This document shows, piece by piece, positions 18,138 to 32,152 of a DNA stretch of 32,152 bases. The stretch's first letter is position 1. Every line of letters starts with the position of its first letter. The notes under the pieces are model-generated. The model was not told the origin of the DNA, did not search any database, and saw only the letters and a list, made by a program, of their open reading frames with translations. The translations under genes were made by a program, and so were the position numbers. The DNA comes from Actinomycetota bacterium (GTDB lineage: Bacteria; Actinomycetota; Nitriliruptoria; Nitriliruptorales; Nitriliruptoraceae). Location: NCBI GenBank assembly GCA_018335555.1, contig JAGXST010000254.1:1-32152 (forward strand), read 5' to 3'.

Positions 18138-19970
18138 TCAGGAAGCCGGGATCACGGGCAGCAGCACCTGGCTGGGATGGTCGGCTGACAGGTGCACGGT
18201 GTTGTTGGCCGGCCGTGAGGATCGCTGCCGTCCGAGTGGCTCGCCGGTGTTCGGATTGACGTCGTACTTGGGGAAGTTGCTCGAACTGACGTCGATACGG
18301 ATGCGGTGTCCACGAACGAACAGGTTCGAGGTCGCCGAGAGATCGACTTCGAGCCGGTAGATCTCGCCCGGCTCGAGCATCGCCTCGTGGTCGAAGCCCT
18401 CGTGGAACCGGGAGCGGATGATCCCGTCACAGATGTTGAGCGAGAAGCCCTCCGGCCAGTCCGGCGATGGCGGGTACTCGTCGATCAGCTTGACCGTGAA
18501 GTCGGTGTCGGGGGCGTCGCTGGACACGAACAGCGTCGCGAGGACCGGGCCGGTCAGCTCGGTGTCCACCTCCAGGGGCGCTGTTCGGAAGACCAACACG
18601 TCGGCACGCTGCTCCAGGGGTAGGCCGCTGGTCGGGTCACGTTGGTCGAGCCCACCCGGTCGGGCCACGCTGCTGACTCCGGACATGGCACCACCGACGG
18701 AGGGGACGGGGTTGCGCGGGTCGAACCGATAGGTGATCGATTCGGTACCAGTCGATGCGTCGGCCGTCAGCGCCCCTCCGGCGTGCAGGTAGTAGGGCGT
18801 CGGCTGCATCCGGGCGAGTGGCCACTCCTGTTCCCATCGCCACGTGCCGCCATGGTCGAGGCGGTGTGTCGGGGTCGGCGCGTCCATCCTTCGGCGCCCG
18901 GATCCGCCGCCCATCACGAAAAGCTTGACCGGGGGCTCGTCCTGCAGGCCGCTGTCGATGCCCCGGAGCACGTGGTCGAACCAGCGACGTCGCTCGTCGT
19001 TGTAGTCGAACGCTGCGGCACCGCCGAATTCGGTGTCACCGGAGAAGCTGTGTCGAACCGGCTCCTCGCCGTGGAGCCACGGTCCCATGATGAGGTGGAT
19101 GGGTTGGCTGAGCCGCCGCCGCAATTCGACGTAGTCGTTGAGTGTGCCCTTGGTGTGCATGTCGTACCAGCTGCCGACCAGCATCATCGGCACGTCGGGC
19201 ACGTCGTCGTAGTACTCCTGCGGGCTCAGCGTCCGGTTGCGCCAGTGGTCGTCGAACCCTCCGCGCGTGAGGGTGTCGAGCAACGACCGCTCGTAGTCGG
19301 GGAACTCCGCCAACACGGTCGTGCCTGCGTCGATGGTGCCGCGCAGGAGGATGGGCATCAGGCGGTCGTGGGCGAGGTGAGCCTCGATCCGTTGCGTGAG
19401 TTGTGCGTCCGCGCGGGCGCGGGGATCCGACAGTGCCATGTGCAGCATGAACGGATACATACGACCGTCCAGCGCCCCGCCGACCATGCGCAGACCCGAG
19501 ACGTAGTAGCTGGATTGCCCCTGGCAGCGGAACTGTGTCACCAGCGCTTCGGGGCGCAGCGTCGCCAGCGAGGACTGGGTGCTGTTGCTGTAGGAGAGCC
19601 CGGTCGTGGCGACGCGCCCGTCCGACCAGGGCTGGGAAGCGAGCCACTCGACCGTGTCGTAGCCGTCCTCGGCCTCGTTGACCCCGAAGTCCCAGTCCCC
19701 GTCGGAGTCATAGCGTCCGCGAACGTCCTGCAACGCGAAGGCGTACCCGTGGCGGCTGAAGTAGTGGGCGGCGCGGACCAGGATGGTGCGCTCGCGGTGG
19801 TAGGGGGTCCGCTCGACGATGACCGGCCAGGGACCGGAGCCGTGAGCAGGCAGGTACACGTCGGTGGCGAGAGTTCGGCCGTCTCGCATCGGGACGCGAC
19901 AGTTCTCGAGCAGGATCGAGCGGTCGACCCGCTTGCCGGCGATTGCGTCAGTGCTCGAGCGGGCATCCAT
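18138..19970 (-). CDS. CocE/NonD-family alpha/beta hydrolase (X-Pro dipeptidyl-peptidase-like)
   Basis: The 610-residue product has an N-terminal S15-type alpha/beta hydrolase (VPMRDGRTLATDVYLP, VIVERTPYHRE, FALQDVRGRYDSDGDW) with nucleophile Ser126 in GLSYS. The aspartate lies in VGSWYDMHTKGTLNDY and the histidine in GPWLHGEEPVRH. A C-terminal jelly-roll region (LEVDTELTGPVLATLFVSSDAPDTDF, VRGHRIRIDVSSSNFP) is the PepX_C domain. Members cleave esters (cocaine esterase), acyl-amino acids (glutaryl amidase) or X-Pro peptides. The ATG at 19970 is chosen because the conserved domain starts soon after and a purine-rich GGGAGAG lies upstream; the longer frame upstream has no support. It opens the leftward operon and is divergent from the DadA-like gene. 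The substrate bond type cannot be settled from sequence. Confidence 0.9.
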   Translation of the reverse strand: MDARSSTDAIAGKRVDRSILLENCRVPMRDGRTLATDVYLPAHGSGPWPVIVERTPYHRERTILVRAAHYFSRHGYAFALQDVRGRYDSDGDWDFGVNEAEDGYDTVEWLASQPWSDGRVATTGLSYSNSTQSSLATLRPEALVTQFRCQGQSSYYVSGLRMVGGALDGRMYPFMLHMALSDPRARADAQLTQRIEAHLAHDRLMPILLRGTIDAGTTVLAEFPDYERSLLDTLTRGGFDDHWRNRTLSPQEYYDDVPDVPMMLVGSWYDMHTKGTLNDYVELRRRLSQPIHLIMGPWLHGEEPVRHSFSGDTEFGGAAAFDYNDERRRWFDHVLRGIDSGLQDEPPVKLFVMGGGSGRRRMDAPTPTHRLDHGGTWRWEQEWPLARMQPTPYYLHAGGALTADASTGTESITYRFDPRNPVPSVGGAMSGVSSVARPGGLDQRDPTSGLPLEQRADVLVFRTAPLEVDTELTGPVLATLFVSSDAPDTDFTVKLIDEYPPSPDWPEGFSLNICDGIIRSRFHEGFDHEAMLEPGEIYRLEVDLSATSNLFVRGHRIRIDVSSSNFPKYDVNPNTGEPLGRQRSSRPANNTVHLSADHPSQVLLPVIPAS

Positions 19971-20097
19971 CGCGGTCTCTCCCGGCAGGTGGCGCGAGAG
20001 TCGGTGGCAGCGCGGTCTCCGCGTCCCGACAACCCGCTCGACATGCCACCCTCCGGCGGCTCGGCCGATGCAACTCGGCGACCCCCCGCAGGACAAC

Positions 20098-20110
20098 GCA
20101 CAGCCTGTAA
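20098..20110. promoter_or_regulatory. Degenerate TTAC-N5-GTAA site in the divergent CocE/DadA interval
   Basis: GCAC-AGCCT-GTAA keeps the centre and right half of the motif seen at 404 and 21544. It lies 128 bases upstream of the leftward operon start and about 150 bases upstream of the rightward one, in a 292-base divergent region with no gene. That region should hold both promoters, though I see no convincing -35/-10 pair in it. Confidence 0.3.
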
Positions 20111-29260: not shown

Positions 29261-29938
29261 ATGCGGACCAGGGGATCGCCACCTTCGGAACTCGAAGGTC
29301 CGCTCGAACTCGATCCGACGGACTGGTCGTCACGCGACGTCTACCACCTGATGACGGGGCTCGTCGTTCCGCGCCCGATCGCCTGGGTGTCGACGGTCGA
29401 CGAAGACGGAGTCTGCAATCTCGCCCCCTACTCGTACTTCAACATCGTGGCGAGCGACCCACCGCACGTCGTGTTCAGTTCGGTGGGGGAGAAGGACACG
29501 CTGCGAAACGTGCGCAGCACGGGCGAGTGCGTGATCAACATCGTCACCATGGATCTCGTGGAACGCATGGTCTTCACCGCGACCGACTTCCCCGAGGACG
29601 AGGACGAGTTCTCGTGGGCAGAGCTCGAGCAGGCGCCCTCCCGCAGGGTGCGGCCGCCGCGGGTCGCTGCGGCTGCGGCCCACCTCGAGTGCGCGGTGCG
29701 ATCCATCGTCCCGGTCGGCAACGGCAGCATCGTTGTTGCCGAAGTGGTGCATCTGCATGCCTCGGAGCGAGTCTGGTCGAATGGCCGGATCGATCCGGAG
29801 CTGCTCGATCCCGTCTGCCGTCTGGGCGGTTCCAGCTATGCCTCGCTCGGACACGTATTCAAGCTTTCATGGCCGTCGTGGGCGCACGATGTCGCGGGCA
29901 CCCGACCGGGGGAAGTCGTGCCCCGACGGGCCCTCTGA
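29261..29938 (+). CDS. Flavin reductase-like domain protein (DIM6/NTAB family)
   Basis: The 225-residue product has the split-barrel FMN-binding core: LMTGLVVPRPIAWVSTVDEDGVCNLAPYSYFNIVASDPPHVVFSSV at about residues 30-75, then KDTLRNVRSTGECVINIV, and VEVVHLHASERV-like strands towards the end. Family members bind FMN and reduce flavins or act as flavoproteins of unknown substrate. The ATG at 29261 has AGGAGC 5 bases upstream. The gene is divergent from the dimethylglycine dehydrogenase-like gene with a 170-base gap that must hold both promoters; TAGTAT on the reverse strand near 29165 is a possible -10 for the leftward one. It is the last ordinary chromosomal gene before the presumed integrated element. 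Confidence 0.85.
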   Translation: MRTRGSPPSELEGPLELDPTDWSSRDVYHLMTGLVVPRPIAWVSTVDEDGVCNLAPYSYFNIVASDPPHVVFSSVGEKDTLRNVRSTGECVINIVTMDLVERMVFTATDFPEDEDEFSWAELEQAPSRRVRPPRVAAAAAHLECAVRSIVPVGNGSIVVAEVVHLHASERVWSNGRIDPELLDPVCRLGGSSYASLGHVFKLSWPSWAHDVAGTRPGEVVPRRAL

Positions 29939-30030: not shown

Positions 30031-30067
30031 GAATTCGGGCTCCCAGGTACTTCGGAAGCCCGAATTC
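30031..30067 (-). terminator. 11-bp hairpin behind the tRNA-Phe 3' half
   Basis: GAATTCGGGCT (30031-30041) is perfectly inverted at 30057-30067. On the reverse strand it begins 2 bases after the CCA of the tRNA fragment, the normal place for a tRNA terminator. On the forward strand it could also end the flavin-reductase transcript 92 bases downstream of that stop. Confidence 0.6.
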
Positions 30068-30069
30068 GG

Positions 30070-30114
30070 TGGTGGTCAGGGGCGGGGTCGAACCGCCGAC
30101 ACCACGATTTTCAG
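30070..30114 (-). repeat. 3' half of a tRNA-Phe(GAA) gene: probable attachment site of an integrated element
   Basis: Read on the reverse strand, this 45-base stretch has anticodon loop CTGAAAA (anticodon GAA, complement of 30110-30112) and anticodon-stem 3' strand TCGTG. The variable loop is GTGTC and the T-arm is GGCGG-TTCGACC-CCGCC. The acceptor strand CCTGACC, the discriminator A and an encoded CCA follow. A matching 5' half (acceptor GGTCAGG, D-arm, 5' anticodon strand) is absent beyond 30114; the bases there pair poorly. This is the pattern left when a tyrosine integrase recombines at the anticodon loop. The original 3' end stays at one edge and the rebuilt tRNA lies at the other edge. 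Confidence 0.75.
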
Positions 30115-30187
30115 GTGCGGGCAACGCCCGAAACCTGGCGAAATCCGGCGTCTCTGGGCTGTCCAGGTCGCCCCAGCGCACCCGCCC

Positions 30188-30215
30188 TTGTCACGATTTG
30201 TCACGTCTTGTCATG
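30188..30215 (+). repeat. Three TTGTCAyG direct repeats at exact 10-bp spacing
   Basis: TTGTCACG at 30188, TTGTCACG at 30198 and TTGTCATG at 30208 lie on one face of the helix, 74 bases inside the tRNA fragment. This resembles arm-type binding sites of a tyrosine integrase or its excisionase. The surrounding 30115-30442 stretch shows no gene I can support. Confidence 0.55.
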
Positions 30216-30442
30216 CCCAGCGCGATGCAATCGGTCCGGAGACGATGCGAGCAGAGGGTTACTGGGAGGAGCTCGCCGCCGGCCCAATGATTGGCCTACC
30301 CCATACGGCTCGTGGCGGGTTCCCCACCTGGTCATACCGGCGGTTCGTTACATGTTGGTCCCCTGACCTCAGGAACCGGGGCGGAAGAACGCTGGAAGGC
30401 GTGTTGTGCAGGTTGACTCCTGCCCAGCGGTCGAGAGGCGCT

Positions 30443-30471
30443 CCGGCCGCGCGAGCAGAGAGCGCGGCCGG
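30443..30471 (-). terminator. 10-bp GC-rich hairpin directly after the small membrane-protein gene
   Basis: CCGGCCGCGC (30443-30452) and GCGCGGCCGG (30462-30471) are perfect inverted arms with a 9-base loop, abutting the stop codon at 30472-30474 on the reverse strand. It probably ends the leftward hypothetical-gene transcript. Confidence 0.65.
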
Positions 30472-30816
30472 TCACTGTCTCGGCTCGCATTCGATCCGGC
30501 CGATCACGCCCTCACCCCCAACGTCTCGGCACTCCTCGCCCGGCTGGACCATCAGCATGACGGCCATGATGCCGATGGCCGCGACCGCGAACGCGGTGAT
30601 GAGTCGACGGACACCGCGTCTTGTCTCCGCCTCCGAGGTCCGCCACCTCCAGGCCGCTCCGGCGATCACCAGAATCGGCGCGGCCACAATCAATCCGAAA
30701 GCGGCAAGATCGAAGATGATGGCTAGCAGGCCGAGTAACGCGGAAACCGCAACTCCCCAGAGCCCGCCTTCCGCTGCCGCAATGAGCCGGCTCAACTTGG
30801 AGTCTGATGGTGGCAT
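30472..30816 (-). CDS. Small hypothetical membrane protein
   Basis: The 114-residue product is not recognised. It shows three hydrophobic stretches at about residues 19-35, 38-55 and 72-90, an arginine-rich loop between the second and third (RWRTSEAETRRGVRR), and a polar tail with cysteines 96 and 110. ATG 30816 is chosen because AGAGAGG lies a little upstream on the reverse strand. The gene follows the unknown gene at 30834 with a 17-base gap, so the two are probably co-transcribed. Base composition is visibly less GC-rich than the catabolic region, in line with a transferred segment. Two or three membrane passes are likely; function unknown. Confidence 0.55.
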   Translation of the reverse strand: MPPSDSKLSRLIAAAEGGLWGVAVSALLGLLAIIFDLAAFGLIVAAPILVIAGAAWRWRTSEAETRRGVRRLITAFAVAAIGIMAVMLMVQPGEECRDVGGEGVIGRIECEPRQ

Positions 30817-30833
30817 CGGAGAGTGTGCCTCTC

Positions 30834-31406
30834 TCAGGGGATAAAGACGTATCCCTGGATGGGTGCGCACAGGCCAAGGTTGAGGATGTCGGCCAAACAG
30901 ACAGCCATCGCGTTGCTCGGGGGCACATAGGCGTAGAACGATCCGGGTGTAAGGTATCGTGACGGACTACTCCCGCTTCCTCCCGGCACACCAAGGTCGT
31001 TCGCATATGCCCACGTATATGCCTCGTGAGCCAGGAATGGATCATGACTCAGCTGGAACGCCAGCGAGCCGTCTCGCTCCCAGTAGCGGCCGGCACCCAT
31101 CGCGAATCTAGCCCCGGCGTGATCCATCAACCTCTGCGTCACCGTCGCCAGTGAACCAGGGAACTCGCAGAACGGATCGGCCGTGTCGTTGCTGAATGTT
31201 TGCCCGACTCGACCGACAGACCCGTTGTTGCCGCCAAGCGAGTAGTGGACTCCCCCCGCGCCGTGCATCGCGCCCGTGCCGGCGTTCCGTACACGCGTTG
31301 TCAGATCAATCTCGGGAACCCCGGTGGAGACCCTCACACTTCGCACACGAACCGTGTCGTCGACGCGTTCCCCGTAAGCCGGGTCTTCCCCACTGAAGTG
31401 GGTCAC
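30834..31406 (-). pseudogene. Hypothetical protein gene, 5' end apparently replaced by insertion-sequence end
   Basis: The frame encodes 190 residues from a GTG at 31406 that overlaps the stop of the truncated transposase (GTGA). The first eight or nine codons lie in what looks like the end of the insertion sequence (31381 to about 31405). The native N-terminus is therefore probably lost and the present start is borrowed. The rest is Gly/Ser/aromatic-rich (GAGGVHYSLGGNNGS, GAGRYWERDGSLAFQLSHD, AHEAYTWAYANDLG) and ends in a hydrophobic ILNLGLCAPIQGYVFIP with two late cysteines. I recognise no family. With the following membrane-protein gene it forms a two-gene leftward unit within the presumed element. 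Confidence 0.45.
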
Positions 31407-31906
31407 GCCGCGGTGGTGAAGCTGTAGGACCTGATCCTCGTGGTGGTCGGGACCCTACGTGGCTGGCCGGCGTGGAGGCGGATCCGGGCCGCGTAGTTGC
31501 CGCAGTTGCGAAAGCCGCGGGCGGCCCGGCGGATCGACTTGATCTTGACGTTGGCGGACTCGGTCGGTGCGTTGGAGGCGCGGGTGTCGAAGAACGCGAG
31601 CACCTCGTCTTGCCAGGTGTCGATGGTCTTGGCGAGCCGGAGCACTTCGTCGACCTCGACCTCGACGGCCCACTCGTAGAAGGCCACGAGGCGGCGGTGG
31701 GCGGTGCCGCGATCGGGTGCCTGATACATCCGCCGGAGCAGGTCGACCGCGATCCAGGCGGCCGCGACCTCGTCATCGGTGTCCGCAGCACGCAGCCGGT
31801 CGAAGATCTTGGCGAGCACCGTGTCGTCTAGCCGTTCCTGGCCGACCCGCAGGACCCGTCGGAGCTTGAACAGCGGATCGTCTTTGTGGCCGCGGTGTTT
31901 GATATG
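31403..31906 (-). pseudogene. ISL3-family transposase, C-terminal remnant
   Basis: The reverse frame runs HRGHKDDPLFKLRRVL, RVGQERLDDTVLAKIFDRL, then TWQDEVLAFFDTRASNAPTESANVKIKSIRRAARGFRNCGNYAARIRLHAG. This last part is the C-terminal signature of ISL3-type DDE transposases (SNAxTExxNxxIKxxxRxAxGFRN). Only the last 168 or so residues are present. Upstream of about 31906 the frame stays open to near 31970, but the sequence no longer resembles the family, and the zinc-finger and first catalytic aspartates are missing. A start at GTG 31819 is possible but would not give an active enzyme. The probable outer end of the insertion sequence is near 31381 (GGGTCTTCCCCACTGAAG). This is a decayed insertion sequence beside the integrase gene. 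Confidence 0.78.
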
Positions 31907-31965
31907 CGGGTGATCCTGCTCCGGCCGGGGTTCAGTCTTGCTGGAGGTGGCACGAGGAGCGCCTG

Positions 31966-32152
31966 ATGATGTTCAACGTCTGCTTGACCCGCTCATCGAA
32001 CGGGTCCGAGATCAAGAAGGTGGAGCTGGGGCAGCCGCTGCTGGACGACTACCTGATGTTCGTGATGGCGCGGGCTCGACCGAACACGGTGCTCGCGACG
32101 GCGTACGACTTGAAGGTGTTCTTCGGTGCCGTGGGCAAATCTCCGGGGGAGG
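31966..32152 (+). CDS. Probable tyrosine recombinase/integrase, N-terminal part (runs off the right edge)
   Basis: The 62 visible residues start MMFNVCLTRSSNGSEIKK and continue GQPLLDDYLMFVMARARPNTVLATAYDLKVFF, the pattern of the SAM-like core-binding domain at the start of XerC/D-type and phage-type integrases (a helix, xRxxNTxxxYxxDLxxF). The catalytic domain with its RHRY tetrad is beyond the edge, so activity cannot be judged. GAGGAG at 31954-31959, 6 bases before the ATG, supports this start. It is back to back with the truncated transposase and lies within 2 kb of a tRNA-Phe 3' fragment, which fits an element integrated at that tRNA. Confidence 0.68.
   Translation, partial: MMFNVCLTRSSNGSEIKKVELGQPLLDDYLMFVMARARPNTVLATAYDLKVFFGAVGKSPGE

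Follow-up and report, generated by a model that had tools for sequence, protein, structure and literature searches.

The window, the whole stretch of 32,152 nucleotides that was analysed, spans one entire contig (C254) of a metagenome assembly (G000; 349 contigs, 77.5% complete, 3.3 Mb searched for repeats) whose host belongs to the class Nitriliruptoria (Actinomycetota). Near its right edge, at 30070–30114 on the minus strand, lies the 3′ half of a tRNA-Phe(GAA) gene, running from the first base of the anticodon loop through CCA. Read from 30114 to 30070, these 45 bases are CTGAAAATCGTGGTGTCGGCGGTTCGACCCCGCCCCTGACCACCA, beginning CTGAAAATC and closing CTGACCACCA; we take them to be a displaced half, the att core at the junction of island and chromosome. 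ARAGORN found no full tRNA in the window, and the 5′ half of tRNA-Phe is absent from it. Directly behind the half, at 30031–30067 (minus strand), is a strong inverted repeat of terminator type (arms 30031–30044 and 30054–30067, –25.6 kcal/mol), as had been noticed from the sequence; hairpins of like type follow tRNA-Phe in G001, G002, G003, and G007. We considered this hairpin as proof that the DNA to its left is native chromosome, an argument weakened by element-side terminators of the same type in G002 and G007.

On the other side of the half, the putative island end (30115–30187, minus strand) closes with the bases ...CCCGCAC, which resemble the half-site CCTCGCAC of other tRNA-Phe elements. 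It leads to three copies of TGACAA at 10-bp spacing (30188–30213, minus strand), 79, 89, and 99 bp from the core, where shuffles of the window give an expectation of 0. These are the “phased repeats” that the original prediction had placed to the right of the half, and we propose, from the shuffles, a genome-wide count, and the comparison with relatives described below, that they are arm-type sites for an integrase.

Beyond the repeats are two open reading frames on the minus strand that we regard as probable island cargo: one of 132 aa (30472–30870), probably a small membrane protein, with no Pfam family above the cut-off, and one of 190 aa (30834–31406) that has no Pfam or PHROG match and is absent from 60 relatives. 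The expectation of AT-richer genes of unknown family at this place was borne out as to the genes, but the AT enrichment is only mild (GC 0.61–0.63 at 30500–31250 versus 0.65–0.70). Next comes the broken insertion sequence that had been recognized by eye, an ISL3-family transposase remnant (31403–31972, minus strand) comprising the C-terminal part only (DDE_Tnp_ISL3, PF01610, positions 138–240 of 240, E = 1e-24) and sharing 87% identity with a G002 copy. The window ends inside the start of a tyrosine recombinase gene (31966–32152, plus strand), cut by the contig end. Its product is identical over 62 residues to a second copy at the very start of another contig, C102; both contigs end at the same point in this recombinase repeat, the probable cause of the break in the assembly. 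None of 20 near relatives has the gene, which is rare in a sample of the phylum; on plasmids of Nocardioides and Rhodococcus, its homologues adjoin a second recombinase gene. The C102 copy, the rarity, and the plasmid neighbors most likely mark it as a later insertion of a separate mobile cassette, so that the earlier reading as the N-terminus of a tyrosine recombinase stands while its candidacy as the integrase of the island, which lies instead at the tRNA end of contig C49 (see below), was rejected. Beside different genes in the window (31823–32152), in C102 (L006:1–330), and in G103 (L102:1680–1770), the cassette appears to have the same border, GTTTGATATGCGGGTGATCC, a hint that its end or target is fixed.

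The original prediction had proposed that extending the sequence rightward would reveal an intact tRNA-Phe in the appropriate orientation, with its last 45 or so bases matching the half. Extension is impossible because the window is the entire contig, which ends at the window edge, but the intact partner exists on a separate contig, C49, found when the right end of the window was used as a query against the genome. C49 carries, in order, tRNA-Lys, tRNA-Asp, and tRNA-Phe(GAA) (a conserved cluster), a terminator of its own that differs from that of the window, two copies of TGACAA (the repeat TGACAAATCCATGACAA), and a gene for a tyrosine integrase. In a sequence comparison, the last 45 bases of its tRNA-Phe(GAA) are identical to the window half (45/45), and the identity begins at the first base of the anticodon loop, the point at which the homology had been predicted to stop. 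The integrase frame, directly behind tRNA-Phe, runs for 260 codons up to the contig end; its last third was searched for in the bin and not found, and the island interior is likewise absent from the bin. Cut in this way, the copy scores below the Pfam cut-off, whereas full-length homologues, 54–63% identical in an alignment, match Phage_integrase (PF00589) and PHROG integrase families, and homologues about 50–63% identical lie directly behind tRNA-Phe in G002, G004, G017, and G035. No phage structural genes were seen in the ~2 kb available at one island end or the ~0.9 kb at the other.

To gauge how unusual the arm motif is, we counted TGACAA doublets with 4–5 bp between the copies across 3.3 Mb of the genome, with the reversed pattern as the control. 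There were five doublets, all near integrative elements (one on C49, 74–85 bp from tRNA-Phe; an overlapping pair in the window; and one apiece at the two ends of an element on contig C47), and none for the control pattern. The C47 element (C47:2454–20217; L096, L095) is a complete integrative element of 17.7 kb bounded by 33-bp direct repeats (TTTTCGGCGTCCTCGACGTAGAGGTAGTACTCC), with an integrase at 19533–20108 and TGACAA arm repeats at both ends; its target is probably the 3′ end of a protein gene. It serves as an internal control: one element, with the same arm motif at both ends. A full-length paralogue of the C49 integrase (C113:6800–8117; L093) immediately follows tRNA-Arg(ACG) and is accompanied by similar arm repeats; for this element we looked for a tRNA-Arg 3′ fragment and found only the intact gene in the bin.

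The same organization is found among relatives. Fragments of the tRNA-Phe 3′ end occur in G004, G007, G013, G016, G018, G022, G026, G034, G035, G038, and G046, nearly all of them beginning with CTGAAAATC or a decayed version of that sequence, and the predicted geometry of intact tRNA-Phe and displaced half recurs within single contigs, for example in G004, G007, and G038. The arms lie 89 and 100 bp from the core in G004 and 78 and 88 bp in most fragments of other genera; the core-to-arm distance is conserved between the window and its relatives. Arm motifs differ between elements, but within an element the two ends have one in common: TGACCA in G004, CTCACGA in G038, and TGACAA in the genome studied here. 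The arm-pair score was 23 for G004 against 10 for the best mismatched pair, 14 for G038, and 11 for G000, a value reached by 1 of 200 shuffles; the more degraded pairs of G007, G046, and G035 gave no signal. Arm-type repeats that lie near both ends and match each other, as these do, are expected of elements with lambda-type, heterobivalent integrases, as is a catalytic domain of the Phage_integrase family, which the full-length homologues have. Conversely, in two genomes of the same genus, G001 and G003, tRNA-Phe is followed by its terminator, with no integrase, arms, extra half, or element. These comparisons show tRNA-Phe to be a recurrent insertion point, a hotspot, in Nitriliruptoria.

A second kind of unit occupies this site in the family. 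An end of ~100 bp (CCGTCCAA..TCCGTCCAACC..CTCAGTTCGC..CCTCGCAC) precedes tRNA-Phe halves in seven family genomes (conserved in G007, G013, G016, G018, G022, G026, and G034; L071:4590–4760, L108:380–2092, L109:1750–3280, L112, L113, L114, L117, L076, and L077), attached to different short units that mostly lack an integrase. A profile of this end gave no significant match to the window, with which the units have the layout alone in common. The units of G007 (2.8 kb) and G022 (1.4 kb) have no integrase, and in that of G013 (1.5 kb) the start of an integrase is only faintly traceable. Beside the tRNA-Phe fragment of G007 is a pair of genes, named by eye, for a ribbon-helix-helix antitoxin and a RelE-like toxin (L071:3854–4650), of which the antitoxin part recurs in G013. 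Such small units (about 1.4–2.8 kb, some with toxin–antitoxin-like genes) might, with their arm-repeat ends, be moved in trans by resident tRNA-Phe island integrases, a suggestion that we put forward tentatively and consider rather unlikely.

We conclude, with a probability of nearly 0.9, that 30070–30114 is one attachment junction of an integrative island in tRNA-Phe(GAA), with the restored tRNA and the integrase at the C49 end. We base this on what was seen directly, namely the half tRNA, an intact partner with an integrase, arm repeats at both ends, and a like layout in relatives. The target would be the single tRNA-Phe(GAA) gene of the host. The C49 tyrosine integrase would bind core sites around the anticodon loop together with the TGACAA arms near both element ends and recombine the attP of the element with the tRNA gene. 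At the integrase end, the tRNA would thereby be made functional again by the 3′ half that the element brings, and the gene's former 3′ half would be displaced to the far end, which is the window. The DNA to the right of 30114 would then be island, entered later by the ISL3 insertion sequence and the foreign recombinase cassette, and the DNA to the left of about 30070 would lie outside it.

Because C49 and the window are separate contigs, and no read or contig joins them, we infer rather than observe that they belong to a single insertion as its two ends. An identical core says little for the pairing because the tRNA sequence is so conserved: the 45-bp core is identical in G002 and matches at 44/45 in a G007 fragment. 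The arm repeats are stronger evidence; on the other side stands the paralogous element at tRNA-Arg (C113), which uses similar arms. The orientation of the C49 tDNA and the window fragment is consistent with one island, and, of the features by which Islander defines an island, the genome holds an intact tDNA with a cognate 3′ fragment, the fragment extends from a recognized crossover sublocation (the anticodon loop) to the 3′ end of the tRNA, and a tyrosine integrase lies inside the interval (on C49). The remaining features, one replicon, the same orientation, and a distance of 2–200 kb, are found on one contig in G004, G007, and G038, while here the ends are on separate contigs.

The pairing bears on the best surviving alternative, in which tRNA-Phe carries a tandem array, the window half being the end of an older element or of a decayed cis-mobilizable one and the C49 integrase belonging to a later element stacked between it and the tRNA. 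Tandem halves and integrase-less units do occur in G013, G022, and G007; the recombinase cassette and the insertion-sequence remnant near the end show that the island is not pristine; and the genes of the left flank are accessory. TGACAA is nevertheless common to C49 and the window where other elements at this site have TGACCA, TGTCCA, or CTCACGA, and a further tRNA-Phe half was looked for in the bin and none was found. We regard a stacked array as improbable but a real competitor.

A different assignment of the sides, with the island to the left of the fragment and host chromosome to its right, seems very improbable. The left flank contains a flavin reductase-like protein (29261–29938, plus strand; PF01613), which in our preferred reading lies outside the island, and a dimethylglycine dehydrogenase-like protein. 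These genes are patchy among relatives, so the left side could itself be an older island, and the catabolic genes have no close homologue in same-genus relatives. In relatives, no gene of this left flank sits downstream of tRNA-Phe, and we found among them no empty site that is flanked on the left as the window is; the flavin reductase was tried as a marker of such a site and rejected, its homologues in relatives never being beside a tRNA. Against this assignment, integration displaces a 3′ fragment along with the DNA downstream of the tRNA, and the arm repeats, the ORF absent from 60 relatives, the insertion-sequence remnant, and the recombinase cassette are all to the right of the fragment. 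Finally, it is scarcely credible that the 45-bp half arose without integration, as a tRNA duplicate due to chance or decay: other duplications can yield tRNA fragments and all relatives have the core sequence, but the exact start at the anticodon loop, the terminator behind, the arms at a conserved 79–99 bp, and about ten other genomes alike speak against it, and the relatives' fragments, which also begin at the anticodon loop and have arm repeats, already refute it.

The island at the C49–C254 site is, by its sequence features, most probably a tRNA-targeted genomic island of a well-known, ordinary kind. In Islander, 2083 of 3919 islands use an anticodon-centered site (PMC4383910); islands in the tRNA anticodon loop are very common, so the Nitriliruptoria island belongs to a known kind. 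It resembles the “A” crossover class of that collection in its restored tRNA, its displaced 3′ fragment in the same orientation, and its tyrosine integrase beside the tRNA (PMC4383910). The tRNA-Phe elements of G002, G004, G017, and G035 have the same integrase family, tRNA, and arm layout, but their arm motifs (TGTCCA, TGACCA) and cargo differ. Decayed cis-mobilizable elements and tandem accretion are already published (PMC5704250), and the integrase-less, att-bounded units at the same tRNA in G007, G013, and G022 match them; such units are found in relatives only, whereas the island studied here has the C49 integrase. Within the genome, the tRNA-Arg(ACG) island and the 17.7-kb element are alike in having an integrase and TGACAA-type arms but differ in their targets. 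In a small search of the literature, we found no account of such islands in Nitriliruptoria. Pairing by arm repeats offers a way to join island ends that are split over contigs in a fragmented metagenome assembly, and in this little-studied class an island now has a precise boundary, an integrase, and likely arm sites.
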